Below are positions 35,604-54,120 of a DNA stretch of 64,000 nt, piece after piece (the stretch's first letter is position 1; every line of letters starts with the position of its first letter). The stretch is from contig NZ_JAAQPI010000026.1 of the NCBI RefSeq assembly GCF_011683955.1, forward strand, positions 1-64,000, in the 5' to 3' direction. The stretch is from Pseudomaricurvus alkylphenolicus (GTDB lineage: Bacteria > Pseudomonadota > Gammaproteobacteria > Pseudomonadales > Cellvibrionaceae). The position numbers and the translations under genes were made by a program. Below the pieces are notes generated by a model. The model was not told where the DNA came from. It saw only the letters and a program-made list of their open reading frames with translations, and ran no database searches.

Positions 35604-35733
35604 TATTGAGCTCTCCGAGTAATACCAATTGTTATAGTCCACACCGGCACAATAGCCTTATAAATCTGATGTTCTAAAAAAATATCACGGCCAAAAGTAC
35701 AGCCACAATACAATGGGGCAGCATTGGCGTAAC

Positions 35734-35761
35734 ATGACACCGTGTTGACGCAAAATAACTC
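35734..35761 (+). promoter_or_regulatory. ATGACACC motif, site A
   Basis: ATGACACCGTGTTGACGC followed by AAAATAACTC, 131 bases upstream of receptor copy 1. Its surroundings (CCACAATACA, GGGGCAG) are also conserved upstream of receptor copy 2. See the finding on the seven-site motif. Confidence 0.55.
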
Positions 35762-35813
35762 ACTAATAAATCATTTCAAATGACATCTAACGGCATATTT
35801 CTATTAGCGCTCC

Positions 35814-35892
35814 ATGACTTCTTGTTGCCGCACAATAACCTGAACATCTTTATTAACTTATCTCAGAATAAGAAACGCACGGATAAACACAG
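35814..35892 (+). promoter_or_regulatory. Orphan promoter/leader: ATGAC motif site G plus 26-bp leader
   Basis: The motif at 35814-35841 matches site B at about 21 of 28 positions. Exactly 53 bases after its start, the 26 bases at 35867-35892 (AATAAGAAACGCACGG...) are identical to 51000-51025, which lie 53 bases after site F upstream of the HD-domain gene. Here no gene follows; the convergent dehydrogenase ends at 36010. This is a stranded copy of that promoter. The rest of the 35.6-36.0 kb gap shows no gene. Confidence 0.6.
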
Positions 35893-36009
35893 AGCCTCTA
35901 ATAGCACGAAGAAATATCACCCGCGATCCGTTTTCACCCCTGAACAGCGAACCGCCTTACGGCTCACCTATGAGCCCCAGGCAGTTTGGTATAGTAATTA
36001 CAATCAATA

Positions 36010-37068
36010 TTAAATGTACGCCTGTAAACTACCTTTGCGCCAAGGTTCAATAATCACTTTTGTGTGTTCGCCTCCGGACATCAACGCATCAAATGCGCCT
36101 TCTACGCTGTCGATACCCACTCGACCGGTAATTAACTTCTGCCAGGGGATTTCCTGCTTGTTTAACATCTCCAGGCATGTAACAAAGTCTTCCGGCGTGT
36201 AATAAAAACTAAACTTCAGCACCAGCTCTTTCATCGTTGCATGCATAGGCTCGATAGTAACACTCGAAGAATGGATGCCGGTAAAGACGACCGTTGATCC
36301 CGCCGGTGTACGGCGAATCAAATCCGGTATCATTTTGGGAATACCCACGCACTCATAGACCGCAGTCTTTGATTCACCGGCGATTTCAGCCAGTAACGCA
36401 AACTCATCTTGCGACTGTGGGTCAACCGTATGTGTCGCGCCAAATGTTTCGGCCAGTTGGCGTTTATCCTCTTGCGGGTCGCTGGCGATGATGGTTTTTA
36501 CCCCTCGCTGCTGTAAAGCAATGATACACGCCAGGCCAATCGGCCCACAGCCTGCCACCAGTGCAACCGTGTCAGTATCCTGATCTGCTACATTCACCGA
36601 ATGCAAGCCAACCGCTAATGGCTCGGTAAGTGCGGCGGCCTCGCTGGGCAGTTGCTCAGGTACAGGTATCATCAGGCTCTCGGTTAAAATAAAATATTCC
36701 GAGTAGGCACCATAAAGGCCAGGCCCTACACCAATGCCCACCTGCTCCTCACCGTCGAGAATAAAGGGAATGGACGTCACCCGTGTACCTACGGGCAACT
36801 GCTGAGAGGTTTCAGGTCCATAGGCCACCACCTCTGCACAGAACTCATGGCCCAAACTTACCGCAAAATCAGACACAGACGCTTCCGAGTCCATCATCCC
36901 CTCTTGCTTCATAAGGGGGACATAGTCATCGGCGTGTTTTAGCATATGAATGTCGGAGCCACAGATGCCACAAGCCAGTGACTTGACCAGCACCTGCCCC
37001 GGACCGGGTACTGGAGCAGCGACCTCCTCCAGATGCAGTTGTTTGTCTCGCATAACGATTGTTTGCAT
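36010..37068 (-). CDS. Zinc-binding medium-chain alcohol dehydrogenase
   Basis: 352 residues of the MDR superfamily, oxidising a secondary alcohol or polyol with NAD(P). Catalytic zinc ligands are Cys36 (CGICGSDIH) and GHE at 73-75; the nucleotide fold is VAGCGPIGLA near 168. The four-cysteine structural-zinc loop of horse-liver-type enzymes is absent: VTSIPFILDGEEQVGIG has no Cys. The ribosome site GAGG is 8 bases upstream. It follows the AraC gene in an apparent hydrolase-AraC-dehydrogenase operon. An eroded copy is at 45.4 kb. Confidence 0.88.
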   Translation of the reverse strand: MQTIVMRDKQLHLEEVAAPVPGPGQVLVKSLACGICGSDIHMLKHADDYVPLMKQEGMMDSEASVSDFAVSLGHEFCAEVVAYGPETSQQLPVGTRVTSIPFILDGEEQVGIGVGPGLYGAYSEYFILTESLMIPVPEQLPSEAAALTEPLAVGLHSVNVADQDTDTVALVAGCGPIGLACIIALQQRGVKTIIASDPQEDKRQLAETFGATHTVDPQSQDEFALLAEIAGESKTAVYECVGIPKMIPDLIRRTPAGSTVVFTGIHSSSVTIEPMHATMKELVLKFSFYYTPEDFVTCLEMLNKQEIPWQKLITGRVGIDSVEGAFDALMSGGEHTKVIIEPWRKGSLQAYI

Positions 37069-37122
37069 GATGATTACCTCATGGTGTTGTGTATTATTTC
37101 TTGGTGATTTTTCTTTACTTTT

Positions 37123-38133
37123 TTATTGTGCCGTTCTTATTCTCTGGCGGTACTCAGCCGGCGTACACTCCTCTTTATTCTTGAAAGCGCGACGAAAATT
37201 GGCAGCATCCTGATAACCCAATAAGACAGATATCTTCTCCACGGCAAGATCTGTCTTTTCAAGATAACGCAGCGACCAATTGTGTAATTCATTGGCCCTG
37301 ATTTCTTTAACGCTGGTACCTTCCAGACTCAAACGTCGATTTAACGTGCGCTTGGATATATGCATTTGTTCCGCAACACAGCTTATATCAGGAAACGGTG
37401 GTTCAATTGAACGCAAATAAGACACTACATGCTGAGTGTAAGTGTCATTATTCTCCTGTTGCAGCTCTTGCAACGCACTTGCCAGTTTTACCTGCGCCAT
37501 TTCCCAGAGCTCTTCAACATAAAATGGGTTGGGAGCATCGAAATCCAAATCACGAAGAACCACTTCATTCTGAGCGGCATTAAATACCACGGTATTCTGA
37601 AAGGCCTCATGATAGCGATCTGCATAACTGGGCGGGGGGTAGGCGAAACGAAATTCAGCGCCCTTAAGCGGCTGACCATCGATGAGTTCTATATAATTCT
37701 TAAATACCATAAACGGCCCTTCGATATAGTGAGGTAGCATAGTCTCATCAGACAGTTCAACGCGAGAACTCAACGTTAACCCATTCAACCCGGAGCGCAT
37801 AGAGAAGGTTACATTGTTGACAAGAAGCCGAGAATAGGACTCCAGAAGCCGCAAACCGGCACGCAACGTAGGTGCTCTATTAGCGGCCGCCCCCAGGAGC
37901 CCAGGAAGACACGCAGTAAGCCGGTGCGTATAAAGTAAAGTCCATGCCGGATCACCAATGATATTAGCTGCGTTTTTTATCACCACTTCATAATCAGAAA
38001 AGGGAACATACTTCTTGGTGTTGAGTTGCTCCAGGGTCAGATTGGTGTTATCGAACAACCTGGTTAAAGAAAACCCTTGTCGAGACATATCACGAATGAT
38101 TGACAGAACAATTGACGGATCCGTGCTGAGCAT
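37123..38133 (-). CDS. AraC-family regulator, copy 1 (Arabinose_bd type)
   Basis: 336 residues: N-terminal sensor domain (GAAANRAPTLRAGLRLLESY, PLKGAEFRFAYPPPSYADRY) and C-terminal AraC HTH (ISCVAEQMHISKRTLNRRLS; ISVLLGYQDAANFRRAFKN). GAGG lies 8 bases before the ATG. It has a same-length paralogue at 46.3 kb, about 70% identical by eye; the sensor half differs most, so the two may respond to different ligands yet bind similar DNA. It is translated 17 bases after the hydrolase stop. It is the best candidate to bind the repeated ATGACACC motif. Confidence 0.87.
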   Translation of the reverse strand: MLSTDPSIVLSIIRDMSRQGFSLTRLFDNTNLTLEQLNTKKYVPFSDYEVVIKNAANIIGDPAWTLLYTHRLTACLPGLLGAAANRAPTLRAGLRLLESYSRLLVNNVTFSMRSGLNGLTLSSRVELSDETMLPHYIEGPFMVFKNYIELIDGQPLKGAEFRFAYPPPSYADRYHEAFQNTVVFNAAQNEVVLRDLDFDAPNPFYVEELWEMAQVKLASALQELQQENNDTYTQHVVSYLRSIEPPFPDISCVAEQMHISKRTLNRRLSLEGTSVKEIRANELHNWSLRYLEKTDLAVEKISVLLGYQDAANFRRAFKNKEECTPAEYRQRIRTAQ

Positions 38134-38150
38134 CTTGGCACCTCAAGCGT

Positions 38151-39086
38151 TTAGATTGGGTTTATAGCCATGGGCTTTATCGTCTCAGGCGATTCAGTTT
38201 GATGGGATCCAAACCATTGCAGTAGCTTTTCATTAACCGCATCGGGTGCTTCCTGTTGAGGGAAATGGCCAACACCCTTAAGAACACAGAGTTCCAACCC
38301 CCGTGGGAAGTCATCTTCCACCATGCTGTCACAAAATACGCCAGAGTCAATACAGCCATCTTCTTGACCAATTATAGCCAAGGTGGGCACTGCTAGCCCA
38401 TGAGCAAGGCGTTCCATAAGCGCCTTACTGGCCTTATTCTGGATAAGGCTGTTTTGACGGTAGTAGGCCAATGCGCCTTGCAAAACACCCGGCTGGTTAA
38501 GGGCATCCTTAACCCGTTGCAAACTGGCCGCTGGCCATGACCAGCTTGGGGACCAGCTGCGCCATAACCAGTCGAGAAATTGCCCCTGCTTGCGTTTAAT
38601 CAGCCACTCGGGCAGCCAGGGCAGCAGGAAAAAGAAGGTGTACCAGGTGTTGCGTAATTGGCGGGGAGACTTGGGCATAAGCTGCACATAACGTGGCACG
38701 AAAGGTACCGACATCATCGTCAGCGATTGAAATTTTTCCGGGGCTATAGCGACACAGGCCTGTGCGATAAATGAACCCCAATCATGACCCACAAGATGTA
38801 CTTTATCGAGCCCTAACTGCGCCATCCAGGCCAGAACATCTTCGGCCATCTGTGTTATCCCAAACTCGCCATCTTCAGGCAGGCTAGTCGTTTCGTAACC
38901 CCGAATTGATGGAACAATCACGCGATAGCCGGCCGCACTTAACGCCTCTAGCTGATGAGAATAAGTCTCACGTACATCGGGAAAACCATGCAGCATTATC
39001 ACCGCAGGGCCAGCGCCTTTGGTGTCAGCCGTAAACTCCAGCGGGGAATTCAATAACTTAAGCTGTTGTACGCGTTGCTGAGGCAT
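38151..39086 (-). CDS. Alpha/beta hydrolase, epoxide hydrolase-like
   Basis: 311 residues. HGFPDVRETY (33-42) is the oxyanion region. The elbow GHDWGS at 100-105 places an aspartate (Asp102) as nucleophile, as in epoxide hydrolases and dehalogenases rather than serine esterases. The base is His in GVGHFPQQEAP, and a helical cap lies between. It opens the hydrolase-AraC-dehydrogenase operon, divergent from the ferritin-like gene. Epoxide opening would suit an oxygenase pathway; this is inference. Only the 3' tail survives in the second module at 47.4 kb. Confidence 0.83.
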   Translation of the reverse strand: MPQQRVQQLKLLNSPLEFTADTKGAGPAVIMLHGFPDVRETYSHQLEALSAAGYRVIVPSIRGYETTSLPEDGEFGITQMAEDVLAWMAQLGLDKVHLVGHDWGSFIAQACVAIAPEKFQSLTMMSVPFVPRYVQLMPKSPRQLRNTWYTFFFLLPWLPEWLIKRKQGQFLDWLWRSWSPSWSWPAASLQRVKDALNQPGVLQGALAYYRQNSLIQNKASKALMERLAHGLAVPTLAIIGQEDGCIDSGVFCDSMVEDDFPRGLELCVLKGVGHFPQQEAPDAVNEKLLQWFGSHQTESPETIKPMAINPI

Positions 39087-39180
39087 GTTGATTCCTATTT
39101 ATATTGCTCTAGGTGTCAGGTTCTGTATGAACATTCATGCTATAGCAGGGCATCCAGCATTAACAATAGGATGACGTGTA

Positions 39181-39208
39181 ATGACACCCTGTTGGCGCAA
39201 GATACCCT
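39181..39208 (+). promoter_or_regulatory. ATGACACC motif, site B
   Basis: ATGACACCCTGTTGGCGC followed by AAGATACCCT. ACCCT occurs twice, 18 bases apart. It lies in the 288-base divergent region between hydrolase and ferritin-like gene, 96 bases before site C. Confidence 0.6.
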
Positions 39209-39276
39209 GAACCTAGCGATGATTTTTCCCCACTATACAAATCGAAACAACCCCGAATGAAAGAGCCTGTAATCCG

Positions 39277-39304
39277 ATGACACCCTGTTGGCGCAAAATG
39301 CCCT
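39277..39304 (+). promoter_or_regulatory. ATGACACC motif, site C
   Basis: ATGACACCCTGTTGGCGC followed by AAAATGCCCT, 71 bases before the ferritin-like start codon. The 22 bases at 39301-39322 continuing from it are identical to those at site E. A TTTATCCA element about 57 bases after the motif start could be the -10 box. Confidence 0.65.
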
Positions 39305-39374
39305 AAATTTTGTCGATTATTTCGCGCACTATTTATCCACTGTAAAAATCATCAAATAACAGAGTGAGTAATTC

Positions 39375-40181
39375 ATGAATTCAATAACCGTGCGGAAGAT
39401 GACTTTCGACTTTCCAGACGATATGGACCTGATGGTAATCCCAGGTGATCGCATTTCATCGGCATTTCTTATAGGTGCAAGTCTATTGTTGCCCTACCTT
39501 GAACCCTACCTGATTCGCACCATGCGCAAAGCCATCCCTCTGGTTGAAGACAAAAAAGTGCAAGAGGAAATGAAACTGTTTTGTGGCCAGGAAGCGAATC
39601 ATTTCAAACAGCATGCGCAAGTCAACGACATACTGCGTCAATACTGCAAAGACCCCGAAGCACTGGCGACCTTGGAAGCAGAGATGGAAGCGGACTACAG
39701 AGGCTGGAGCAAAAATCGCTCGCTTAAGTGGAATCTCGCCTATTCAGAAGGCTTTGAAGCTTTCACCTCGGCTGTTACGTTAATGACCTTTGAAATGGGT
39801 ATGTTGGATGATGTGACTCATCCATTAGCAAAGGTAACAGAATGGCATTTCATGGAAGAACTGGAGCATCGCACAGTGGCTTTTGATGCCTACAAACACG
39901 CTGTCGGTGGTGGTTACCTGTTCAAAAACCGTGTTGCCCTGTTTGCGCAATGGCATTTGCTATCTTATGGATGGCGCATGGGAAAATTATTTCTGATGGA
40001 TGAAGCCGATATGGCGCCGGAATACCGCACAGCCGAGTTCCAGCGTCAAGTCAGAAACCGGGGACTAAAAATGCTGACCAAAGCACCCTTCGTCGTACTG
40101 AAGACGTATCTGCCCGGCTATAAACCCCACAAATTACAACTGCCTGAGCGTTTCGCCGAGCTGCAGGCCAAGTATTCTTGA
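39375..40181 (+). CDS. Ferritin-like di-iron family protein (PF10118, 'metal-dependent hydrolase')
   Basis: 268 residues with the family's usual annotation as a predicted metal-dependent hydrolase. The visible ligand pattern is that of a four-helix di-iron protein: Glu43, Glu73-x-x-His76 (QEANH), Glu128 (GFEAF) and Glu162-x-x-His165 (EELEH). This is the ligand set of ferritin-like oxygenases, so O2-dependent chemistry should be considered. No signal peptide. It is the first gene of the operon with the cupin and acyl-CoA ligase, under sites B and C. Confidence 0.78.
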   Translation: MNSITVRKMTFDFPDDMDLMVIPGDRISSAFLIGASLLLPYLEPYLIRTMRKAIPLVEDKKVQEEMKLFCGQEANHFKQHAQVNDILRQYCKDPEALATLEAEMEADYRGWSKNRSLKWNLAYSEGFEAFTSAVTLMTFEMGMLDDVTHPLAKVTEWHFMEELEHRTVAFDAYKHAVGGGYLFKNRVALFAQWHLLSYGWRMGKLFLMDEADMAPEYRTAEFQRQVRNRGLKMLTKAPFVVLKTYLPGYKPHKLQLPERFAELQAKYS

Positions 40182-40251
40182 TAGACAGTGTTTTCCGGAT
40201 AGACAGTGTTTTCCGAAAACATAACAAGCAACCCAAAACAGGACCATGACG

Positions 40252-40809
40252 ATGAATGCAAAAAATGAAGCCATAGAAATCACTAACAACAACATTATGG
40301 AAGAAGCGCTTATGGGCATCCCCAAGACTGGCGTATCAGACACCCTTCATGTCGGCCAAGATGACCTTCCCTGGGTCGACACTGGCCACGGTGTAAGCAT
40401 TCAGCTGCTTCACGTAGACCTTGCCCAGGGACTCTGGATAAACCGTTCAAGATTTTCGCCGGGCACCACCCTACCAACCCATTATCACACCGGCATCGTT
40501 TACGCCGTCACCCAAAAAGGAAAATGGTGGTACACAGAGACACCGGAACAAGTCAACTCCGAAGGCTCTTACCTGTTTGAACCGGCCATGTCGATACACA
40601 CACTCACCGTTGACCCGGATACTACCGAAGATACCGAGGTCTGGTTTGCCATCTACGGCGCCAACGTCGACCTGGATGAAGACGGTAATGTGACGTCTAT
40701 TCTCGACGCCGCCACCGCCTTAAAACTCTATCGCCAAGCCTGTGCCGCCGAGGGTAAATCCTGCGAAGGGATGATTGTTGTTGGCGAAAACCTGACTCAT
40801 CACGCTTAA
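40252..40809 (+). CDS. Cupin protein, 2,4'-dihydroxyacetophenone dioxygenase-like
   Basis: 185 residues from the ATG at 40252 (AGGA 8 bases upstream; the ATG at 40246 is too close to it). A single cupin barrel with metal ligands, numbered from 40246, His79 and His81 (PTHYHTG), Glu98 (WYTET) and His118 (SIHTL). This spacing fits the three-His site of 2,4'-dihydroxyacetophenone dioxygenase, a non-haem iron enzyme cleaving a C-C bond next to a ketone. It sits 36 bases before the acyl-CoA ligase. The exact substrate is unknown. Confidence 0.75.
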   Translation: MNAKNEAIEITNNNIMEEALMGIPKTGVSDTLHVGQDDLPWVDTGHGVSIQLLHVDLAQGLWINRSRFSPGTTLPTHYHTGIVYAVTQKGKWWYTETPEQVNSEGSYLFEPAMSIHTLTVDPDTTEDTEVWFAIYGANVDLDEDGNVTSILDAATALKLYRQACAAEGKSCEGMIVVGENLTHHA

Positions 40810-40845
40810 ACACCCAGTAGCTCCCTAAAAGGTCAAAAATTTACC

Positions 40846-42540
40846 ATGTCAGATCAATCATTTATCACACCACTGCAAGCCTTTTACCAATGGGAGCGCC
40901 TGCGCCCCAATGAGATCTTTCTCAGTCAACCATTACAAGGAGATCAGTGGCGTGATTACACCTGGGCAGACGTTGGTCAGCAAGCACGAATAATTGCCCG
41001 CGCGCTGCAGGACAGGGGATTAAAGCACGGTGACACGGTTGGCCTTTCGGGGGCAAACTCTGCCTATTGGGTGATCACCGACCTTGCCATCATGATGGCC
41101 GGGGGCGTCAGCGTACCGGTGTATCCCTCCATGCCTGCAGACAAACTGCAATACATCGTCAATCACAGCGACATGAAGATACTGTTTACCGACGCAGACG
41201 GCGCATCGAGCATCAACAACCTGGCCGCGACGGTTGGCGACACGGTAACACTTATTTCTCTTGGCGATGAAGGGACAAGGGGAGAAAACACGCCGATCAC
41301 CCCATGGGGTTCATTGCTGGAGAAGGTGGCCCCGATTGATGGATCACCACTGCGTGCCGATGACGATCTTTGGACCATATCCTACACCTCCGGCACCACC
41401 GGCATGCCTAAGGGGGTTATGCATTCTTTTTCGACCATGCCCAGATTCGCCGCCACATTCCCCCAGCTTACCCCTCAAGATAACAATGCCGTATTTTTCT
41501 CATTCCTGCCGCTCGCCCATATAGGCGAGCGCGCCGCGATCGAGATCCACGCTTTATACGTCGGCGCAAGGATTTATTTTAACAAGAATCTTGACACCTT
41601 CGCCCAAGATCTGCTGCACGCAAGGCCCACCTTCTTCTTTGCCGTACCCCGAATCTGGCACAAGCTAAAACAGGGTATTATCGCGAGCATAGGGGATGAG
41701 ACTTGGCAACAGGTTTTGCAGGACCCCAAGCTTGCCCATACCGTCGGTAAGCAAGCGTTAACCGCCTTGGGGCTGGAACGGGTGACCACCGCTTTTTCCG
41801 GTTCGGCGCCAATCGCCAAAGCCGATCTTGAGGCATGGACAACCCTGGGATTGCCACTGTATGAAGGTTATGGCCAGACCGAACACCTGTCAGGACTGAG
41901 CAATCGCCCCGGAGCGGTTAAAGTCGGCAGCATTGGTAAATTACAGCTTGTGGAGGAATTGGCCCAAGTCGCGCAATGCAAAGTGGCCGACAATGGCGAG
42001 CTGCTATTGCGAGGCCAGGCCACCATGCTGGGGTATTACAAAGATCCCGAAAAAACCGCAGAAACCATTGTCGACGGCTGGCTGCACACCGGTGATAAAG
42101 TGCGTGTTGATGAAGACGGCTTTGTATTTATTACCGGTCGCGTCAAAGAGATCTTCAAAACCGCCAAAGGCAAGTACGTTGCCCCAGCGCCTATCGAAGA
42201 CCAGTTTGGATCGCTTAACCTTCTCGAGCAGTTATGCCTGGTTGGCCGCGGCATGCCACAAACCGTCTTGCTTGTTGTGCTCACGGAAGATGCTGCAACC
42301 CTGGAGCGGGACGATGTGGACGCGCAGCTCTGGGCGGCGCTGGACAGTGTCAATGCAAGCCTTGAAGCACACGAGCGCATTAGCCATATCATTATCTGTC
42401 AAGAACCCTGGACACCAGACAACGGGTTACTGACACACACATTAAAAATGAAACGTGATGAAATTGAGGAAAAAATGCTTGCGCTCATAAAGGCATGTAC
42501 AGAAGATTCCTCAAAAACTATAGTATGGGAAGCGCCCTAG
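40846..42540 (+). CDS. AMP-forming acyl-CoA ligase, copy 1
   Basis: 564 residues. YTSGTTGMPKGVM, YEGYGQTEH, WLHTGDKVRVDEDGFVFITG and the lid segment KTAKGKYVAPAPIE are all intact. About 95% identical by eye to the ligase at 49.2 kb; differences cluster in the last ~20 residues. It is the third gene of the ferritin-like/cupin operon and probably activates the acid produced by that operon. A terminator-like hairpin belonging to the convergent receptor follows. Confidence 0.88.
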   Translation: MSDQSFITPLQAFYQWERLRPNEIFLSQPLQGDQWRDYTWADVGQQARIIARALQDRGLKHGDTVGLSGANSAYWVITDLAIMMAGGVSVPVYPSMPADKLQYIVNHSDMKILFTDADGASSINNLAATVGDTVTLISLGDEGTRGENTPITPWGSLLEKVAPIDGSPLRADDDLWTISYTSGTTGMPKGVMHSFSTMPRFAATFPQLTPQDNNAVFFSFLPLAHIGERAAIEIHALYVGARIYFNKNLDTFAQDLLHARPTFFFAVPRIWHKLKQGIIASIGDETWQQVLQDPKLAHTVGKQALTALGLERVTTAFSGSAPIAKADLEAWTTLGLPLYEGYGQTEHLSGLSNRPGAVKVGSIGKLQLVEELAQVAQCKVADNGELLLRGQATMLGYYKDPEKTAETIVDGWLHTGDKVRVDEDGFVFITGRVKEIFKTAKGKYVAPAPIEDQFGSLNLLEQLCLVGRGMPQTVLLVVLTEDAATLERDDVDAQLWAALDSVNASLEAHERISHIIICQEPWTPDNGLLTHTLKMKRDEIEEKMLALIKACTEDSSKTIVWEAP

Positions 42541-42633
42541 TCGCTTTAACGTCAATAAAATAATAATTCCCGCAAGCTACCAATTCAATTTTTAAACCCG
42601 ATACTGTTCTTTTCATCGAATACCAAATACAAG

Positions 42634-42665
42634 AAAACCTGCTCCAGATGAATGAAGCAGGTTTT
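42634..42665 (-). terminator. Terminator-like hairpin of receptor copy 2
   Basis: AAAACCTGCT and AGCAGGTTTT form a perfect 10-bp stem; on the minus strand TTTTCTTGT follows. It lies between the convergent ligase and receptor genes and could serve both. Confidence 0.6.
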
Positions 42666-42715
42666 CTGTAAGTTAAAAATTTTTCTTAAATAAACTTAGA
42701 TAAACTTAGCTAATT

Positions 42716-45271
42716 TTAGAAGCGATAATTAGCCTGCAGCGCAACCGTGCGCGGGGCGTCCTGAAAACCGGTGTAGCTCGTAGCGCCAAGCCCAAGCAGT
42801 CCAGTCAGCGGGGTCTCAGCTATATAGTTGTAGGTGTCTTTATCGGTGAGGTTCTTACCCAACAGGGCAAGCGTCCACTGCTCGGCCTCCAGTGCAATAC
42901 GCAGGTTTACCTTGGTCGCCGCACCCTGCTTCACCAGCGGGTCCATGGTCGCTTCGACAAACTGCTCACCGCTGTAATTGAGATCCAGTGTTGATCGCAG
43001 ATCAATACCGTCAACGACAGGCATCACATAATCAGCACTGACACTGGCCGCCAGAGAAGGCGTGTAGATATTCTCTTCCCCTTTCAGATCACAGCTAGAG
43101 GCGGGGTTGGAGGCCGGACAGGTAGCGCCTTCGTATTCTTTAAACTCGAAATCCAGGTAAGCCATTGAACCCGATAGGGTCAGACCTTCTGATACGCGCC
43201 AGCGACCATCCAGCTCAACGCCCTGACTCACAGATTGACCGGCGTTGCCGACATTAACGCCTACAACACCGTCGAAGACACTGACTTGCATATCGTCGTA
43301 CTCGCTGTAGAACAGGGCCAGGTTGAGGTGAGCGGCGCCACCGGCCAAAGACAGCTTGGCACCCAGCTCGCCACTCAAAACAGTCTCGTCTTCATACTCG
43401 AAAATATCGGCAGAGCCGCTATTGGTGAGAGCGTCGAAACCACCGGCTTTAAAACCTTGGCCGAGCGTCGCATAGAACAGGGTATCGCCCGAGTAGTCCC
43501 ACTCCACCATCAATGTTGGCGTAAAGGAACGCTCGGTACGCGTTTTGTCCAAATCATGTCCCGTCAGGCTATTCAAATCCCCATTCAGGGCGATTTGGCC
43601 CGCCGTCAATGCCAGGAAGTCATCGCCATCAGTGGGGTCAATGGTGCCGGTTGCGCTGTTGATCAGATCCAGCACCTTCTGAGCGCTTTTTTCTTCTTCG
43701 GTGTAGCGGCCACCCAGGGTCACGCGCAGCGCTTCGCTGACATTCCAGGTTGCCTGCGCAAAGATGGCATAGGTTTCGCTTTCACCTTTATAGCGACGCT
43801 CTGTGCTATAGCCGGCTAGCGCTCCCAGACCCTCAAAACCAAAGGGTGCCCCACCCAAGGCCGCACCGGTACAACCGAGAGCACCCGCGGCTATTTCTGC
43901 CAGCGAACCGGCGGCATCGGTGGGGTCTGTTAAACAACTAAGCGCGTCCAGGGAAGCCCCCAGCACACCTATGTCCGTGTCCAGCCCCCAAGCGGCGCTC
44001 GCACTATATTCAAGATCCCACTGCTGGTAGTAGACTCCCGCAATCCAGTCTAGGGTTTCACCGCCGGGAGAGACAAAGCGTATCTCCTGAGAGAACTGGT
44101 CGTACTCTTCTGCGGTCCTGGCGCTCGAAAACGTATCAATACCGTTTGTATCAGTGTCAAACAGAACATCCGTATCATAGGCCGCATAGCCGGTCACCGA
44201 GGTCATGGTGACACCACCCAGATCCCAGTTTAGGGTAAAGGTAGCATTGTCAACGTCGTATTCGTGGTGCTCTTCGAGGTTGGTGTTACGACGACGGTCA
44301 GCCGTACCGTCTTCAAAGCCGCCGGAAGGCAGGCTGCCATCCCAAGACGCCTGATAGAGATCACTCGTGACAGGATAATTACCCGCATTAATAGCACCAC
44401 CCGCTTTTGCAGCGCCCAGTAGAGCGCCGGTCGCCGCCAGAGTATCAATCGTCTGTGGGTAGGTACCGAGCGGGCCGGTATAACCCGCGATCACCTCATT
44501 ACCGATGCCGTTAAAAAAGTCTACGGTGCTGTTTTCCAGCTTCAAGGTGGCATCGATGTTGCTATTGATATCGAAACCCAGGGTCAGACGAATGGCCTGC
44601 TCCTCGCTACCGCCCTCGTCTTGGCCGGTCAGGTTGTTTTTGTAGAAGCCGTCACTTTCCTTATCCCGCACCACCAGGCGCGCGCGAAGGCCATCGGTCA
44701 GGGCGCCAGAAACCATAGCATTCAGGGTTTGGGCGTTGTCCTTTGGTTGGTATTCGACACCCAGGCTCGCTTCAAATTCTTCGGTAGGTTTAGCCGTGGT
44801 TGAAGACAGGGCTCCGGCGATACTGTTCTTGCCAAACAGCACGTTCTGGGGGCCGCGCAGCACTTCAACCCGCTCCAGGTCCATAAACGGCATGACCGAC
44901 AAGGCGCTACGGCCCAGGGCAATGTCGTCCATATACTGAACCACTGACTGCTCAAAACCGGCGTTCGCACCGGAGCCAATACCGCGCACTACCAGGAGTT
45001 GACCGAAGCCAAGATCAGCCATCTGAAAGTTGGGAACATAGGCGGACATATCACCAAGATCGGCAACACCCGCCTCCGTCATTTTTTCGCCGGTTACCGC
45101 CGACACGGACATAGGTACATCCTGCAGTGATTGCGCTCGCTTTTGCGCGGTTACAATAACCTCTTCCAGTACGAAGTTCGTATCATCAGCCACAGCCGTA
45201 AAACTGACACTGGATGTAATGGCCGCAATCGCCAAAGACAACTTATAGTTCTTTTTACAGCTTCTGTTCAT
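42716..45271 (-). CDS. TonB-dependent receptor, copy 2
   Basis: 851 residues from the ATG at 45271, which corresponds to the start chosen for copy 1. Signal peptide, TonB box NFVLEEVIVTAQKRAQS, plug and barrel ending LQANYRF are intact. Relative to copy 1 it lacks four residues (SNDD) just before the TonB box. Changes are scattered across the barrel (for example YGLFDPDT to TDVLFDTDT), as expected for a recent duplicate whose surface loops are drifting. It abuts the eroded dehydrogenase and the second AraC gene. Confidence 0.9.
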   Translation of the reverse strand: MNRSCKKNYKLSLAIAAITSSVSFTAVADDTNFVLEEVIVTAQKRAQSLQDVPMSVSAVTGEKMTEAGVADLGDMSAYVPNFQMADLGFGQLLVVRGIGSGANAGFEQSVVQYMDDIALGRSALSVMPFMDLERVEVLRGPQNVLFGKNSIAGALSSTTAKPTEEFEASLGVEYQPKDNAQTLNAMVSGALTDGLRARLVVRDKESDGFYKNNLTGQDEGGSEEQAIRLTLGFDINSNIDATLKLENSTVDFFNGIGNEVIAGYTGPLGTYPQTIDTLAATGALLGAAKAGGAINAGNYPVTSDLYQASWDGSLPSGGFEDGTADRRRNTNLEEHHEYDVDNATFTLNWDLGGVTMTSVTGYAAYDTDVLFDTDTNGIDTFSSARTAEEYDQFSQEIRFVSPGGETLDWIAGVYYQQWDLEYSASAAWGLDTDIGVLGASLDALSCLTDPTDAAGSLAEIAAGALGCTGAALGGAPFGFEGLGALAGYSTERRYKGESETYAIFAQATWNVSEALRVTLGGRYTEEEKSAQKVLDLINSATGTIDPTDGDDFLALTAGQIALNGDLNSLTGHDLDKTRTERSFTPTLMVEWDYSGDTLFYATLGQGFKAGGFDALTNSGSADIFEYEDETVLSGELGAKLSLAGGAAHLNLALFYSEYDDMQVSVFDGVVGVNVGNAGQSVSQGVELDGRWRVSEGLTLSGSMAYLDFEFKEYEGATCPASNPASSCDLKGEENIYTPSLAASVSADYVMPVVDGIDLRSTLDLNYSGEQFVEATMDPLVKQGAATKVNLRIALEAEQWTLALLGKNLTDKDTYNYIAETPLTGLLGLGATSYTGFQDAPRTVALQANYRF

Positions 45272-45401
45272 TATTGAGCTCTCCGAGCAATACCAATTAT
45301 AATTATCCACACCGGCGTAATCGCCTTATAAACCTGATGTTCTAGAAAATTATCACGTCCACATGTACAGCCACAATACAGTGGGGCAGTATTGGCTCGT
45401 G

Positions 45402-45429
45402 ATGACACCGTGTTGACATCGAATGACCT
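45402..45429 (+). promoter_or_regulatory. ATGACACC motif, site D
   Basis: ATGACACCGTGTTGACATC followed by GAATGACCT, 131 bases upstream of receptor copy 2, at the same place as site A relative to copy 1. Confidence 0.55.
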
Positions 45430-45436
45430 ACTAATA

Positions 45437-45515
45437 AATGCGCCTTCTACCTTGTCGATACCCTCTCGACCGTTGATCCCGCCGGTGCGTGGCGAATCAA
45501 ATCCGGTATTATTTA
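45437..45515 (-). pseudogene. Eroded remnant of the alcohol dehydrogenase gene
   Basis: 45437-45471 matches 36091-36126 and 45467-45515 matches 36288-36335 of the intact dehydrogenase gene. The two segments meet at a CGACC that is present at both positions in the intact gene, so 166 bases were lost between CGACC repeats. No other part of the gene is recognisable. It shows that the second module once had the same gene order as the first. Confidence 0.8.
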
Positions 45516-45633
45516 TAAAAAGTAAACCTGCAATTATTCAACCTGAATAATTGGTGTAGGTATTACTGGTTATTGTGAGATTTTCTGTAACCCCCCGGGG
45601 TAATACCGTGCCATCTTTTAACTTATCGATGGA

Positions 45634-45895
45634 GGTTCTGTTGCAAATCCGGTGCGTTCAGACAGAATATGCTACTCTACTGCCTGAGACTGATCAGATA
45701 TCGAACGAGCGAGGATGAAGTTTACAAGACGCCACTTTAAACAGGTGAGCGGTTGCGAATGGACGGGACCTACATCAAGGTCAAAGGAAACACCTTTATC
45801 GTGCCGTCGACAAAGAAGGCCACACAGTTAATTTTCTACTCACCGCCAAGCATGACACAAAGGCTGCAAAACGTTTTTCGACAAATGAATAAAAC
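45634..45895 (+). mobile_element. IS6-family insertion sequence remnant (left end and partial transposase)
   Basis: GGTTCTGTTGCAAA at 45634-45647 is a typical IS6-family terminal repeat. An ATG at 45715 opens MKFTRRHFKQ, the usual start of an IS6 transposase. The frame then jumps, after an internal deletion, to WRMDGTYIKVKG and, after a frame slip, AVDKEGHTVNFLLTAKHDTK and KAAKR, ending at 45892. The central DDE region and the right terminal repeat are missing. Not mobile. Confidence 0.75.
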
Positions 45896-45964
45896 GGCAA
45901 AGTAGACCACCATGAGTTAATCTTCTAATGATGTTGTGGTCTAATATCCAGGTGATTTTTCTTT

Positions 45965-46337
45965 ACTTTTTTGGGTCTTCAGAATAATTTGTGGGTTGTT
46001 TTATGGCAGCGAAGTGCTGTTTCCGGAAATAGATATGTGCGCTCTTCGAGCGCATTCGCCGTCAGAGCCGGCTCCTACAGGATTCTCCAAGCACCTGTAG
46101 GAGCGCGCTTTAAGCGCGAAGGATTTTCTCCGTACGGACTTCAATACTCAAAGATCAGTCCCGGCGCTATTTCCGGTTATGGCACTTTGCTGCTTATCCG
46201 GTCTTCCCTAATACTTGTTGCAAATACTGCTCAAATAAAAAAGCTCGATCTTCAACGCAAATTGCCCGTATATCAATAAGATAACCATCGTTACGGTTAA
46301 ACCCTACCCAAGAATTCCTCAGAGGAACCACTTTTTT
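45965..46337. mobile_element. 357-bp insertion flanked by 8-bp direct repeats (MITE or decayed IS)
   Basis: ACTTTTTT flanks the insert at 45965-45972 and 46330-46337. The uninterrupted target (one ACTTTTTT followed by ATTGTG) is preserved at 37117-37124, downstream of AraC copy 1. The ends GGGTCTTCAGAATAATT and, inverted, GGTTCCTCTGAGGAATTC are partly similar. An 8-bp target duplication and GG(G/T)TC ends are compatible with an ISL3-like non-autonomous element. Inside are a REP-like palindrome (CTCCTACAGG...CCTGTAGGAG, about 46070-46103) and no convincing gene. The second copy of the repeat extends into the 3' end of AraC copy 2. Confidence 0.65.
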
Positions 46338-47346
46338 ATTGTGACGCTCTTATTCTCTGGCGGTACTCGGCCGGCGTACAATGCTCAGTATTTCTAAAAG
46401 CGCGACGGAAATTGGCAGCATCCTGATAACCCAATAAGACAGATATCTTCTCCACGGCAAGATTTGTATTTTCAAGATAACGCAGTGACCAACTGTGTAA
46501 TTCATTGGCCCTGATCTCTTTAAAGCAGGTGCCTTCCAAACTCAAACGTCGACTTAACGTGCGCTTGGATATATGCATTTGTTCCGCGATCCAGCTTATC
46601 TCAGGAAACGGTGGCTCCATTGAGCGTAAATAAGACAGCACATGCAGAGTGTAAGTGTCATTACTCTCCTTTTGCAGCGCTTGCAACGCTTTTTCCAGTT
46701 GTACCTGCCCCGACTCCCAGAGCTTTTTGTCATAAAATGGGTGCGGAGTATCGAAATCCAAATCACGAAGAACCACTTCATTCTGAGCGGCATTAAATAC
46801 CACGGTATTCTGAAAGCTCTCATGATAGCGATCTGCATAACTAGGCGGCGCATAGGCAAAACGAAATTCAGCGCCCTTAAGCGGCTGACCGTAAAAAAAC
46901 TCTATGTAATTTTTTAGCGCCAGAAACGACGCTTCGATAAAAATGGGCAACAGAGATTCATCAGACAGTTCAAGCTGACAACTGTAAGTCAGTCCATTGA
47001 TTTGAGAGCGCACAGAGTGGGTTAGCATGGTAGTGACAATACGAGAATAGGACTCCAGAAGCCGCAGACCGGCACGCAGAGTCGGCGCGCTATAGGCGGC
47101 CGCGCCCAGAAAACCCGGAACACACGCATTAAAGCGGTTCGTGTGCATTAGAGGCCATGCCGGGTCGCCCGTGATATCAACTACGTTTTTAGTCAAAAAT
47201 TCAACCTCAGAAGCGGGAATATGTTGCTGAGTGTTGAGTTTCTCTAGAGTCAAGCTTGTATTATCGAACAGATTAGCTAATGAAAACCCTTGTCGAGACA
47301 TCTCTCGAATGATCGACCGAATATGTGACGGATTCGCGCTGAGCAT
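46336..47346 (-). CDS. AraC-family regulator, copy 2 (Arabinose_bd type)
   Basis: 336 residues, same length and layout as copy 1 at 37.1 kb. The HTH half (EQMHISKRTLSRRLSLEGT, ISVLLGYQDAANFRRAFRN) is almost unchanged, while the sensor half has diverged (for example SVRSQINGLTYSCQLELSDE). It probably recognises the same DNA motif and a related ligand. The insertion described above ends at its stop codon without breaking the frame. Its upstream sequence is the decayed tail of a hydrolase gene. Confidence 0.87.
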   Translation of the reverse strand: MLSANPSHIRSIIREMSRQGFSLANLFDNTSLTLEKLNTQQHIPASEVEFLTKNVVDITGDPAWPLMHTNRFNACVPGFLGAAAYSAPTLRAGLRLLESYSRIVTTMLTHSVRSQINGLTYSCQLELSDESLLPIFIEASFLALKNYIEFFYGQPLKGAEFRFAYAPPSYADRYHESFQNTVVFNAAQNEVVLRDLDFDTPHPFYDKKLWESGQVQLEKALQALQKESNDTYTLHVLSYLRSMEPPFPEISWIAEQMHISKRTLSRRLSLEGTCFKEIRANELHSWSLRYLENTNLAVEKISVLLGYQDAANFRRAFRNTEHCTPAEYRQRIRASQ

Positions 47347-47362
47347 GATGATTACCGCTACA

Positions 47363-47418
47363 GTTTAGATTGTGCTTATAACATGGGGCTATATCGCCCC
47401 AGGCAATTCAGTTATTTA
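47363..47418 (-). pseudogene. 3'-end remnant of the epoxide hydrolase-like gene
   Basis: GTTTAGATTGTGCTTATA, then GGGCTATATCGCC and CAGGCAATTCAGTT, align with the end of the hydrolase gene at 38150-38200 (GTTTAGATTGGGTTTATA, GGGCTTTATCG, CAGGCGATTCAGTT). The match fades after about 55 bases. The order remnant-AraC is the same as in module 1. Confidence 0.65.
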
Positions 47419-47460
47419 AGGTGCTGCAAGAAAGTCCAGCCTACATCAAAGTGTCTTCTT

Positions 47461-47488
47461 ATGACACCCTATTGGCACATGATGCCCT
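47461..47488 (+). promoter_or_regulatory. ATGACACC motif, site E
   Basis: ATGACACCCTATTGGCAC followed by ATGATGCCCT, 90 bases before the SMP-30 start codon. Bases 47485-47506 are identical to 39301-39322 after site C. A TACTTATCA element at about +69 may be the -10 box. Confidence 0.65.
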
Positions 47489-47577
47489 AAATTTTGTCGA
47501 TTATTTAGCGCAGCATTTGGCCTACTACTTATCACTGTGCACAAAGCCATCCTGTAACGCGACCAAAGGATGCAACT

Positions 47578-48501
47578 ATGCAACTTAAATATGACGTTAT
47601 TGCCGAGGGATTACGCTTTCCTGAAGGCCCTATAATTATGCAGGACGGTTCGATAGTGCTGGTGGAAATTGAACGTAAAACCCTTTCACGGGTTATGCCA
47701 GACGGCAGCATTGAAGTTATTGCAGAGCTGGGTGGTGGCCCCAATGGGGCAGCCATTGGTCCTGACGGACATGTTTACGTCTGTAATAACGGAGGGGCGC
47801 AATTCACCGAACAATTCGGACTTTTGCTGTCAGGACCTGCACCTAAAGACAATGAAACCAGTCGTATCGAAAAAGTAAATTTAACAACCGGAGAAGTTGA
47901 AGTTCTGTACGATCATTGTGACGGCCATAAACTGGTAGGGCCTAACGACATAGTGTTCGACAATCAGGGCGGGTTTTATTTTACTGATTTCGGCAAGACC
48001 TTCGCGGAGACTCGAACAAGAGCCCTGGGTAATGTCTATTACGCCAAAGCAGATGGTTCAAGCATTGTAGCTATGGAAAACGAAAGACTGTCGCCGAATG
48101 GAATTGGCCTCTCGCCTGACGGCAATAGCGTTTACTTTGCCGACACACTCACCGCCAGCCTGTTTGCCTATGATCTAAAGGCCCCAGGAGAACCGAAGCT
48201 TCTGGATTTTCCGCCCGTTGCTGCTCGCCTGGTAGCTCGCCTGCCTGGAGAAGCCCTCTTTGACAGCTTAGCCGTAACAGCCTCAGGAGCAATCTGTGTT
48301 GCCAGCCTTGTCCACGGCGGTATTACGCAAATTGCCCCCGACGGAAGCTATAAACACTATGAAACACCCGACCCACTGACAACCAATATCTGTTTCGGTG
48401 GTGAGGATATGCGCGATGCTTACTTGACTCTTTCCGGCACAGGCAAACTGATTAAATGTCGCTGGCATGAGCCAGGGTTACCGCTCGCTTATAGTGCCTG
48501 A
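47578..48501 (+). CDS. SMP-30/gluconolactonase family protein
   Basis: 307 residues, a six-bladed beta-propeller lactonase family. The metal-site segments are visible: GLRFPEGPI near 14-22, GPNDIVFDNQGGFYFTD and LSPNGIGLSPDGNSVYFADT. These enzymes hydrolyse lactones such as gluconolactone or ring-cleavage lactones. Ribosome site AAGGA is 8 bases upstream. It is the first gene of an operon with an SRPBCC protein and acyl-CoA ligase copy 2. Confidence 0.85.
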   Translation: MQLKYDVIAEGLRFPEGPIIMQDGSIVLVEIERKTLSRVMPDGSIEVIAELGGGPNGAAIGPDGHVYVCNNGGAQFTEQFGLLLSGPAPKDNETSRIEKVNLTTGEVEVLYDHCDGHKLVGPNDIVFDNQGGFYFTDFGKTFAETRTRALGNVYYAKADGSSIVAMENERLSPNGIGLSPDGNSVYFADTLTASLFAYDLKAPGEPKLLDFPPVAARLVARLPGEALFDSLAVTASGAICVASLVHGGITQIAPDGSYKHYETPDPLTTNICFGGEDMRDAYLTLSGTGKLIKCRWHEPGLPLAYSA

Positions 48502-48540
48502 AATAGATGCGAGCACTCTGTTAATAAAAGAGTAATAAAC

Positions 48541-49065
48541 ATGCATAAACTGAAAAAGGTTGACCTGGATTATCTGAATAAAGGTGCCAATTGTGTTCAT
48601 GTATCGGTGGAGATAAATCGCTCTGCCCAAGAGGTTTTCAGCGCTCTCGAACAGGCCGAAATCTGGGTTCAAGCCTACGACTCAATTAGAGAGTTTGTCT
48701 GGACCTCCCCCAAACCCTTTGGCAAAGGAACAACCCGTACCGTCAGCCTGGTGCTGCCCGCGCAACCACTGATCAAGGGTGTCGAGGAGTTTATTGTCTG
48801 GGAACAAAACAAACGAATGGTGTTTTACTATGCACAAATGAGCAAGAAGCTATTTAGTGCCTTACTGGAAGACTATCGAGTTGTCGATAAAGGCAATGCC
48901 CGGTGTGAGCTGGTTTGGGATCTTGGTTATCAAGGTGCAGGCATCTACCGGCCACTGTTTTGGCTGATGAAGGGTAAGATGAAGAAGAACAACCAGGCAG
49001 CACTCGACAACATCAAAAAAATCCTCGAAGCCAAGGCCGATCAACCTGAGGCAATAGCCGCATAG
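48541..49065 (+). CDS. SRPBCC (START-like) family protein
   Basis: 174 residues. The helix-grip fold is suggested by VHVSVEINRSAQEVFSALEQ at the start, a run of alternating strands (GKGTTRTVSLVLPAQPLIKG; WEQNKRMVFYY) and a long C-terminal helix (KKNNQAALDNIKKILEAKA). Such proteins bind or cyclise hydrophobic molecules including polyketides, lipids and sterols. It lies 39 bases after the SMP-30 gene. No catalytic residues can be assigned. Confidence 0.75.
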   Translation: MHKLKKVDLDYLNKGANCVHVSVEINRSAQEVFSALEQAEIWVQAYDSIREFVWTSPKPFGKGTTRTVSLVLPAQPLIKGVEEFIVWEQNKRMVFYYAQMSKKLFSALLEDYRVVDKGNARCELVWDLGYQGAGIYRPLFWLMKGKMKKNNQAALDNIKKILEAKADQPEAIAA

Positions 49066-49213
49066 TCACTCTACGGAAATAGCCTTGGATGCCGTCCTCT
49101 ATCAACGTTTAACTAAGCGCTGGCGTTTAAGATAGATGATTGCCACCCAAAGACTGAGCCATCTCGGTTAATAAACAGCGTCTTAGCAATTATCACCAAA
49201 CACGGACCATACC

Positions 49214-50908
49214 ATGTCAGATCAAACATTTATTACACCACTGCAAGCCTTTTACCAATGGGAGCGCCTGCGCCCCAATGAGATTTTTCTCAGTCAGCCA
49301 TTACAAGGGGATCAGTGGCGTGATTACACCTGGGCCGACGTTGGTCAGCAAGCCCGAATAATTGCCCGCGCGCTGCAGGACAGGGGATTAAAAAACGGTG
49401 ACACGGTTGGCCTTTCGGGGGCAAACTCTGCCTATTGGGTGATCACCGACCTTGCCATCATGATGGCCGGGGGCGTCAGCGTACCGGTGTATCCCTCCAT
49501 GCCTGCAGACAAACTGCAATACATCGTCAATCACAGCGACATGAAGATACTGTTTACCGACGCAGGCGGCGCATCGAGCATCAACAACCTGGCCGCGACG
49601 GTTGGCGACACGGTAACACTTATTTCTCTTGGCGATGAAGGGACATCGGAAGAAAATACGCCGATTACCCCATGGGGTTCATTGCTGGAGAAGGTGGCCC
49701 CGATTGATGGATCACCACTGCGTCCCGATGACGATCTTTGGACCATATCCTACACCTCCGGCACCACCGGCATGCCTAAGGGGGTTATGCATTCTTTTTC
49801 GACCATGCCCAGATTCGCCGCCACATTCACCCAGCTTACCCATCAAGATGACAATGCCGTATTTTTCTCATTCCTGCCGCTCGCCCATATAGCCGAGCGC
49901 GCCGCGATCGAGATGCACGCTTTGTACGTCGGCGCAAGGATTTATTTTAACAAGGATCTTGATTCTTTCGCCCAAGACCTGCTGCACGCAAGGCCCACCT
50001 TCTTCTTTGCCGTACCCCGAATCTGGCACAAGTTAAAACAGGGTATTATCGCGAGCATAGGGGATGAGACTTGGCAACAGGTTTTGCAAGACCCCAAGCT
50101 TGCCCATACCGTCGGTAAGCAAGCGTTAACCGCCTTGGGGCTGGAACGGGTGACCACCGCTTTTTCCGGTTCGGCACCGATCGCCAAAGCCGATCTTGAG
50201 GCATGGACAACCCTGGGATTGCCACTGTATGAAGGTTATGGCCAGACCGAACACCTGTCAGGACTGAGCAATCGCCCCGGAGCGGTTAAAGTCGGCAGCA
50301 TTGGTAGATTACAGCTTGTGGAGGAATTGGCCCAAGTCGCGCAATGCAAAGTGGCCGACAATGGCGAGCTGCTATTGCGAGGCCAGGGCACCATGCTGGG
50401 GTATTACAAAGATCCCGAAAAAACCGCTGAAACCATTGTCGACGGCTGGCTGCACACAGGTGATAAAGTGCGTGTTGATGAAGACGGCTTTGTATTTATT
50501 ACCGGCCGCGTCAAAGAGATCTTCAAAACCGCCAAAGGCAAGTACGTTGCCCCAGCGCCTATCGAAGACAAGTTTGGCTCGCTTAACCTTCTCGAGCAGT
50601 TATGCCTGGTTGGCCGCGGCATGCCACAAACCGTCTTGCTTGTTGTGCTCACGGAAGATGCTGCAACCCTGGAGCGGGACTATGTGGACGCGCAGCTCTG
50701 GGCGGCGCTGGACAGTGTCAATGCAAAACTTGAAGCACACGAGCGCATTAGCCATATCATTATCTGTCAAGAACCCTGGACACCAGACAACGGGTTACTG
50801 ACACACACATTAAAAATGAAACGTGATGAAATTGAGGAAAAAATGTTGTCCCTCGTGGAGGCAAGCGTAAAAGATTCCACAACAGCGATCGTGTGGGAAG
50901 CATCGTAA
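49214..50908 (+). CDS. AMP-forming acyl-CoA ligase, copy 2
   Basis: 564 residues, near-identical to the ligase at 40.8 kb. Sequence identity begins abruptly at the start codon and weakens only in the last ~60 bases; the upstream 148-base gap is unrelated to the copy 1 leader. All ligase motifs are intact (YTSGTTGMPKG, YEGYGQTEH, HTGDKVRVDEDG). Notable substitutions include FPQLTPQDNN to FTQLTHQDDN and RDDVD to RDYVD. It is the last gene of the SMP-30/SRPBCC operon. Confidence 0.88.
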   Translation: MSDQTFITPLQAFYQWERLRPNEIFLSQPLQGDQWRDYTWADVGQQARIIARALQDRGLKNGDTVGLSGANSAYWVITDLAIMMAGGVSVPVYPSMPADKLQYIVNHSDMKILFTDAGGASSINNLAATVGDTVTLISLGDEGTSEENTPITPWGSLLEKVAPIDGSPLRPDDDLWTISYTSGTTGMPKGVMHSFSTMPRFAATFTQLTHQDDNAVFFSFLPLAHIAERAAIEMHALYVGARIYFNKDLDSFAQDLLHARPTFFFAVPRIWHKLKQGIIASIGDETWQQVLQDPKLAHTVGKQALTALGLERVTTAFSGSAPIAKADLEAWTTLGLPLYEGYGQTEHLSGLSNRPGAVKVGSIGRLQLVEELAQVAQCKVADNGELLLRGQGTMLGYYKDPEKTAETIVDGWLHTGDKVRVDEDGFVFITGRVKEIFKTAKGKYVAPAPIEDKFGSLNLLEQLCLVGRGMPQTVLLVVLTEDAATLERDYVDAQLWAALDSVNAKLEAHERISHIIICQEPWTPDNGLLTHTLKMKRDEIEEKMLSLVEASVKDSTTAIVWEAS

Positions 50909-50946
50909 TCATGGGGAGATCTTCATTACCGATAAATTGGCTCAGC

Positions 50947-51025
50947 ATGACACGCTGTTGGCATTCGATACCCTTAGCATCGTTGTTCACCTATCACATA
51001 ATAAGAAACGCACGGATAAACACAG
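50947..51025 (+). promoter_or_regulatory. ATGACACG motif site F with 26-bp leader
   Basis: The motif at 50947-50974 is ATGACACGCTGTTGGCATT followed by CGATACCCT. The leader at 51000-51025 is identical to the one at 35867-35892. A TATCACATAAT stretch (50992 onward) may include the -10 box. It is 183 bases before the HD-domain gene and starts 39 bases after the ligase stop, so the third operon probably has its own promoter. Confidence 0.6.
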
Positions 51026-54100: not shown

Positions 54101-54120
54101 CCCCAGGGCGCCAATAAAGA

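Follow-up and report, generated by a model that had tools for sequence, protein, structure and literature searches.

A candidate operator of a small AraC/XylS clade at the operons of a duplicated catabolic locus in Pseudomaricurvus alkylphenolicus

A short motif recurs between the operons of a catabolic locus in a 64,000-nucleotide stretch of the genome of the gammaproteobacterium Pseudomaricurvus alkylphenolicus (contig NZ_JAAQPI010000026.1, positions 1 to 64,000; hereafter the window), in which two AraC-type regulators are also encoded. As judged from its sequence, this motif very probably serves as operator for a few related AraC/XylS regulators, a small clade whose members have a PF12625 sensor domain. 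In the explanation that we hold with good confidence, a dimer of such a regulator would bind repeats in a 21-bp phase and would exert class II activation on three operons of the locus. Neighbouring breakdown operons and uptake genes would then probably be under common control. The motif is rare across the genome, it goes together with one clade of regulators in a phylogenetic tree and it stands at a fixed distance from a -10-like hexamer; binding by the regulator, activation and response to a ligand are suggested by these features.

Copies of the motif in the window and in the genome

An earlier note on the window had listed seven copies of a 28-bp motif, and these were recovered. The 16-mer ATGACACCSTGTTGRC occurs exactly at 35734, 39181, 39277 and 45402, and with one mismatch at 47461 and 50947. 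The seventh site, 35814, is a weak copy; with four mismatches to the 16-mer, as counted from the bases, it falls outside the matches obtained at up to three mismatches, and a matrix of the other six window sites gives it a score of 24.2. At up to three mismatches, the window contains eight matches, against 1.78 expected and a maximum of six in 100 shuffles. None of the seven sites lies inside an open reading frame (ORF) of 80 amino acids or more, so that all are intergenic (Table 1).

The genome measures 8.88 Mb and yields 107 AraC-like matches; five congeners measure 4.0-5.7 Mb. Genome-wide, the exact 16-mer is found five times, four of them in the window. One-mismatch copies also number five, two in the window and three elsewhere (contigs C1, C13 and C55); in these three the rest of the motif is missing by eye, and the C55 copy lies inside a coding frame. 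At up to two mismatches there are 35 matches, compared with 18 for the reversed pattern. The exact 16-mer is absent from 57 related genomes. Its fifth exact copy (C2:150415) precedes an AraC gene, lying 71 bp before the part that was matched and 11 bp upstream of the start of the longest ORF. This AraC protein is the fourth-best match of the locus regulator among the 107 (30% identity); the third-best (35%), encoded on C45, has a site just upstream as well. No other AraC gene of the genome is closer to the locus pair than these two (30-35% identity).

The bipartite pattern TGACAC-N4-TTGGC-N7-ACMCT was searched for in 390 genomes of the order, with six matches in three genomes and one for the reversed control. 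Two matches are in the window, one each on C2 and C45, one directly upstream of an AraC homologue in genome G371 and one in genome G313; five of the six are thus in the window or directly upstream of an AraC gene of the clade. At up to three mismatches, the pattern is dominated by background in the own genome (135 matches against 118 for the reversed control); own-genome matches were read only at zero or one mismatch (eight matches, two of which, on C12 and C70, are inside coding frames).

A sequence-only site model built from 18 forward sites, six of them own, gave seven clear own-genome matches (E ≤1.2e-4), namely 47452, 39277, 39172, 50937 and 35724 in the window, plus the C45 and C2 sites. 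An independent test was provided by a second model, built from the 12 non-own sites only, which ranks C45, 39277, 39180, 47459 and 35724 first, with E from 2e-9 to 0.004. Scanning the genome in this way, as the earlier note had proposed, returns few clear matches, mostly in this locus. The idea that the motif is confined to the locus holds within the window, but two further copies stand at other AraC genes of the genome. A chance origin is rejected by the window shuffles, the related genomes, the order-wide pattern and the genome-wide model.

Operator anatomy and promoter spacing

Over 21 sites, the conserved columns read TTGGC, six bases, TGACACC, TTGGC and a TRCMCT-like box. The operator is longer than first described, with a TTGGC box 11 bp upstream of TGACAC, and comprises the direct repeats TTGGC-N6-TGACACC and TTGGC-N5-nTRCMCT in a 21-bp phase. 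From one TTGGC box to the next is 21 bp, and from TGACAC to its counterpart about 20 bp, the second half-site being shorter by one base. Direct-repeat half-sites in a phase of about 21 bp are present in the DNA. The direct repeat of ACCCT at 18 bp, singled out at first, was not retained as the conserved phase; it is seen in the best window copies, but the 3′ box reads ACACT or GCACT in 12 of the 14 sites outside the locus. In the window, site 39181 has TGAC in place of the leading TTGGC, and site 35734 has intact TTGGC and ATGACACC-N4-TTGAC boxes with a degenerate 3′ box (AACTC).

An A2/T6 hexamer is found exactly 22 nt after the forward sites in 17 cases out of 18, against at most 6/18 at 42 other offsets. 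It reads CANNNT in 15 of the 17, as counted from the listing. If the spacer is 17 bp, the -35 hexamer would start at the operator's final base, as in a class II layout. As far as spacing goes, a proximal half-site abutting the -35 position together with a fixed -10 is found at these 17 sites, and at all four forward sites of the window (39181, 39277, 47461 and 50947; hexamers in Table 1).

Sites 35734 and 45402 are placed differently. They point away from the receptor genes and lie 92 bp from the start codons. Comparison of the two shows 18/18 identical positions in the scored boxes, 9/21 in the spacer within the operator and 125/151 in the flanks. That the boxes stayed the same as the spacer diverged may be read as selection on the operator.

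The clade of regulators that carries the operator

Both locus regulators exceed the gathering scores of PF12625 and HTH_18 (cut-offs 27.6 and 33.6 bits), with 83.9 and 54.3 bits for AraC 1 and 81.5 and 50.4 bits for AraC 2. Their C-terminal parts, bearing the helix-turn-helix (HTH) motifs, are 83% identical (96/116) and the rest 67% (148/220), so that the description of these halves as nearly unchanged was too strong.

Relatives at E ≤1e-50 were found in four of 389 other genomes of the order, and a site stands upstream in all four, with no mismatch to the bipartite pattern in one and two mismatches in three. In a collection of named genomes, ten AraC loci at 32-38% identity all have the site just upstream, on the opposite strand. 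These relatives were found with eight query sequences, whereas a two-sequence query found none. Scoring covered 22 of the 25 loci (ten near, 12 distant; L094, L098 and L101 left out), and L046/L081, L047/L085 and L118/L082 were each taken as one locus and counted once; the L118 and L082 proteins are identical over 332 amino acids. With the matrix of six window sites, nine of the ten near loci exceed all 50 shuffles. The operator is absent from the 12 more distant loci, of which only six (L086-L089, L092 and L093), matched near the N-terminus, are good controls; the 400 bp scanned at the other six may be coding, which makes them weak controls. A search with R1 in 369 genomes of the class (E ≤1e-4, stricter filters) and one with the L085 AraC in 355 (E ≤1e-50) returned the own genome only.

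In a tree of 32 rows, the 16 carriers form one clade (support 92/86), and none of 500 shuffles was as low. When four rows were added, the label required two changes, because a degraded copy at the congener locus L119 was counted as lacking. L119 belongs to the clade, and its site is off at 4 of 20 specified positions; two more congener rows lie outside the clade and have no site. Altogether, a clear site stands just upstream of araC in 14 of the 15 distinct clade members outside the window, and the fifteenth is the degraded one. A third AraC gene of the window (56325-57356) was considered as a clade member and rejected, since it lies outside the clade in the tree and has no model match nearby.

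Related repeats were seen upstream of other AraC genes. L092 and L093 slightly exceed their own shuffles with a related but different motif. Upstream of AraC, L089, L092 and L093 (Wenzhouxiangella and a gammaproteobacterial metagenome-assembled genome) contain TGGC-N6-TGACC, then TGGTCA and either TACACT or TGCACT; this may be an operator variant used by a related group. Before a related AraC gene of a congener (L120), tandem repeats of about 22 bp, of GAGTCATTTATTGACAC type, are found; on the other strand, they read TGTC-N6-TGAC and resemble the half-site.

Elsewhere, the operator most often faces one type of gene. A PF00487 desaturase-like enzyme is encoded divergently on C45 and in nine other loci (L058, L078, L080-L085 and L091); of these ten neighbours four were scanned by profile, all four hitting PF00487, and the ten show 45-75% pairwise identity among the matches listed. 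In G371 the neighbour is an alpha/beta hydrolase, and those at C2 are an amino-acid kinase/acetyltransferase and an IlvD/Edd-type dehydratase. The survey left out L077 and L079. No PF00487-type desaturase is found among the 20 window proteins scanned. The catabolic locus seems to have captured an AraC-operator pair that usually faces a PF00487 desaturase-like gene. Within this conserved pair of AraC and PF00487 enzyme, a nitroreductase-family gene follows AraC in L081 and L085, and the enzymes of L085 and C45 fall short of the NCBIfam cut-offs for CrtR, DesA, DesB and CrtW.

The catabolic locus and its duplication

Table 1. Genes, operator copies and predicted -10 hexamers of the locus (window positions)
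Feature	Position	Strand	Remarks
TonB-dependent receptor 1	33036..35642	-	
Operator copy 1	35724..35761	+	upstream of receptor 1, reverse to it; model E 1.2e-4, non-own model E 0.004
Operator copy 2 (weak)	35804..35841	+	absent from model lists; CAGAAT hexamer 22 nt on
Zinc-binding dehydrogenase	36010..37068	-	
AraC regulator 1	37123..38133	-	PF12625 + HTH_18; between hydrolase and Zn-dehydrogenase genes
Alpha/beta hydrolase	38151..39086	-	17 bp before AraC 1; probably co-transcribed with it
Operator copy 3	39171..39208	+	distal site, divergent hydrolase-AraC / PF10118-cupin-ligase region; found by both models
Predicted -10 of copy 3, CACTAT	39231..39236	+	
Operator copy 4	39267..39304	+	promoter-proximal site of PF10118-cupin-ligase operon; no leading TTGGC; both models
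Predicted -10 of copy 4, CACTAT	39327..39332	+	
PF10118 metal-dependent hydrolase	39375..40181	+	first gene, target operon 1
ChrR-type cupin	40246..40809	+	
AMP-forming ligase 1	40846..42540	+	
TonB-dependent receptor 2	42716..45310	-	93% to receptor 1
Operator copy 5	45392..45429	+	upstream of receptor 2, reverse to it; weak, E 0.09; absent from non-own model list
AraC regulator 2	46336..47346	-	73% identical to regulator 1
Operator copy 6	47451..47488	+	between AraC 2 and SMP-30/SRPBCC/ligase operon; no leading TTGGC; both models
Predicted -10 of copy 6, CAGCAT	47511..47516	+	
SMP-30/gluconolactonase-like	47578..48501	+	first gene, target operon 2
SRPBCC-fold (Polyketide_cyc2) protein	48541..49065	+	
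AMP-forming ligase 2	49214..50908	+	95% to ligase 1
Operator copy 7	50937..50974	+	upstream of HD/Rieske/epimerase operon; absent from non-own model list
Predicted -10 of copy 7, CATAAT	50997..51002	+	
HD-domain protein	51130..51744	+	first gene, target operon 3
Rieske oxygenase alpha subunit	51807..53117	+	
NAD-dependent epimerase / 3beta-HSD-like	53114..54100	+	

Three segments of the locus are duplicated: 32956-35771 matches 42625-45439 (94.5%), 37117-38199 matches 46330-47413 (81.7%) and 40842-42533 matches 49210-50901 (96.5%). Short dehydrogenase relics remain at 45436-45514. The locus is best read, from this arrangement, as a decayed tandem duplication of a receptor-dehydrogenase-AraC-hydrolase-operon-ligase unit, the second copy of which would have lost or replaced parts. 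By their sequence, operators 35734 and 45402 are related by descent, as are 39277 and 47461; the sites therefore amount to about five independent ones rather than seven. Positions 39277-39334 and 47461-47518 match with 88% identity, from the ATGACACC core to just past the -10, and the flanks are not aligned by BLAST. Beside operator copy 2, positions 35835-35899 resemble 50968-51032 (83%).

Other remnants were noted. A broken IS240-type DDE transposase (45749-45889, plus strand; PF13610, E 8.6e-9) sits between receptor 2 and AraC 2, in the decayed second copy. The 3′ fragment of a third receptor copy (54113-54844, minus strand) has 93-95% DNA identity to the two intact ones. A third ligase paralogue (62%) lies at 21862-23514 on the minus strand, and the genome scan gave no operator match nearby.

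Proposed mechanism and rival explanations

In the favoured explanation, an AraC dimer would bind the two head-to-tail half-sites, each monomer having the two boxes of one half-site for its two HTH motifs. At the forward sites the downstream half-site would abut the -35 position, with the -10 hexamer at its fixed distance, and the spacing suggests that the ligand-loaded protein would recruit RNA polymerase as a class II activator at the operons beginning at 39375, 47578 and 51130. The sites had been said to precede operons and receptors alike. Their locations bear this out, but the receptor sites are reverse to their genes and further upstream, and they probably work in a different mode; a class I arrangement may be guessed. 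The araC genes would themselves be regulated as well, through the sites that lie between divergent genes.

Several points weigh against this explanation. Operator function and activation are deduced from sequence only. The -10 spacing was noticed by eye and then tested on those same sites, and its one exception in 18, the C2 site, lacks both a -10 and an adjacent gene in its own direction. Sites 39277 and 47461 lack the leading TTGGC, 35734 and 45402 lack a forward -10, and the receptor promoters were read by eye only. The first model was trained partly on own sites; its eighth match (45392, E 0.094) cannot be told apart from the next one (C70, E 0.133), which lies in an 800-amino-acid frame. 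The non-own model gives the C2 site an E of 0.25, like the chance matches below it (0.46 and 0.52), and does not list 50947 or 45402. Among the order-wide bipartite matches, that of G313 is inside a coding frame. On the window-only matrix, L085 falls below its shuffle maximum (8.5 vs 10.7), its site being plain by eye, and only six of the 12 distant control loci were truly scanned upstream. Finally, at E ≤1e-150 the locus ligase was found in one of 381 genomes, its own; the target set is therefore not checkable by conservation.

The copies could be mere passengers of segmental duplication with no regulatory role, as the large duplications hold or adjoin two operator pairs. However, the boxes of the receptor pair are unchanged whereas the intervening spacer is conserved less than any other part, the similarity of 39277 and 47461 spans only the ATGACACC core to just after the -10, and AraC genes of other genera and families are preceded by the same operator. 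The passenger idea, largely refuted by this last observation, appears highly improbable. It may also be imagined that the sites are mainly autorepression or looping elements of araC, the target operons being driven otherwise. Such a role would suit the site just upstream of araC, on the opposite strand, in the 14 clear loci outside the window, and the C2 site with its lack of an adjacent gene in its own direction. It agrees poorly with the constant distance at which a -10-like hexamer lies beyond the operator, away from araC, in 17/18 sites and with site 50947, whose nearest araC is 3.6 kb off, and we consider it improbable.

Another question is which protein binds. The locus might be controlled mainly by the C45 and C2 regulators, or by all four, and not by a dedicated local pair. 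This view is compatible with the favoured explanation, from which it differs only in who binds, and it draws on the presence of the same operator at the C45 and C2 AraC genes and on a second HTH core (NFRRAF type) nearly identical across the clade. Yet the local regulators are interleaved with the sites, and the third base from the core end is C in all seven window sites, while of the 14 others 12 have A, those of C45 and C2 among them, one has C and one T. The local pair is also distinct at position 261, although this is one of 11 columns that set it apart in the compared stretch. Control by the distant regulators is thus judged unlikely. As to the dedicated regulon put forward in the earlier note, an AraC operator common to several operons is strongly upheld by the phylogenetic association and the genome scan; exclusive control by the local pair is not, two other AraC genes having the same operator.

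The A/C split has a hypergeometric probability of 6.9e-5, an overstated value, since the copies lack independence. In the first HTH stretch, position 261 is K in both locus regulators and E, D, Q or S in the 15 other clade members. The A-to-C change in the sites and K261 are linked by correlation only. Tentatively, and with some doubt, it may be proposed that a captured AraC-operator pair was amplified with the locus and insulated by the A-to-C change in the promoter-proximal half-site together with a change in the first HTH motif, such as K261. If true, this insulation would be a natural case of regulon rewiring, with the parental and derived versions in one genome.

Significance and comparison with known systems

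The operator marks likely co-regulated genes in an otherwise unmatched catabolic locus and may thereby narrow the search for a substrate. The gene cluster would have grown by duplication, with regulator and operators kept, and most of the AraC group is linked to an uncharacterised PF00487 enzyme in marine Gammaproteobacteria. At the araBAD promoter of Escherichia coli, the araI1-I2 half-sites are direct repeats in a 21-bp phase, the proximal one touching the -35. The operator described here shares two direct half-sites, the 21-bp phase and the proximal position at the -35, but it has other boxes, more target promoters and a regulator with a different sensor domain. The named families that score best with AraC 2, over most of the protein, are CypR (NF053784, 138.9 bits) and QhpR (NF049968, 107.5 bits), well short of the curated cut-offs of 500 and 250; AraC 2 is not assigned to either, and the operators of CypR and QhpR were not found in the searched literature. 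Nor was the precise candidate operator of this AraC group found described there, as far as the partial coverage of the sources goes (including PMC3900636, PMC7318663 and PMC5806209).

Two Pseudomonas regulators offer close parallels. SphR of Pseudomonas aeruginosa, of the AraC family, recognizes operators at sphA, sphBCD and cerN made of two direct repeats TGNCCSNNRNNSNCC; the half-sites are 15 bp long, begin with TGNC and are 6-8 bp apart, and the regulon comprises three promoters, including a divergent target, and one further predicted site (PMC3900636). Direct-repeat half-sites, a divergent layout of araC and target and a very small regulon are common to both systems. The half-site TGNCCSNNRNNSNCC agrees with TTGGC-N6-TGACACC at some positions only, in a by-eye comparison in which the operator here does not conform to it, and the targets are unrelated. 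CdhR binds GGTCGC direct repeats with a 15-bp spacer, that is, a 21-bp period, in a divergent and autoregulated arrangement, and is described as a class I activator belonging to the GATase-1-like subfamily (PMC5806209). Regulators of the CdhR/GbdR/ArgR type resemble the present case in the 21-bp period of the direct repeats, the divergent layout and the autoregulation, which is presumed here; the box differs, and CdhR, as a GATase-1-like protein, is unlike the PF12625 proteins of the present system. By analogy, the system would work as SphR and CdhR do, as a local regulon of the AraC type.

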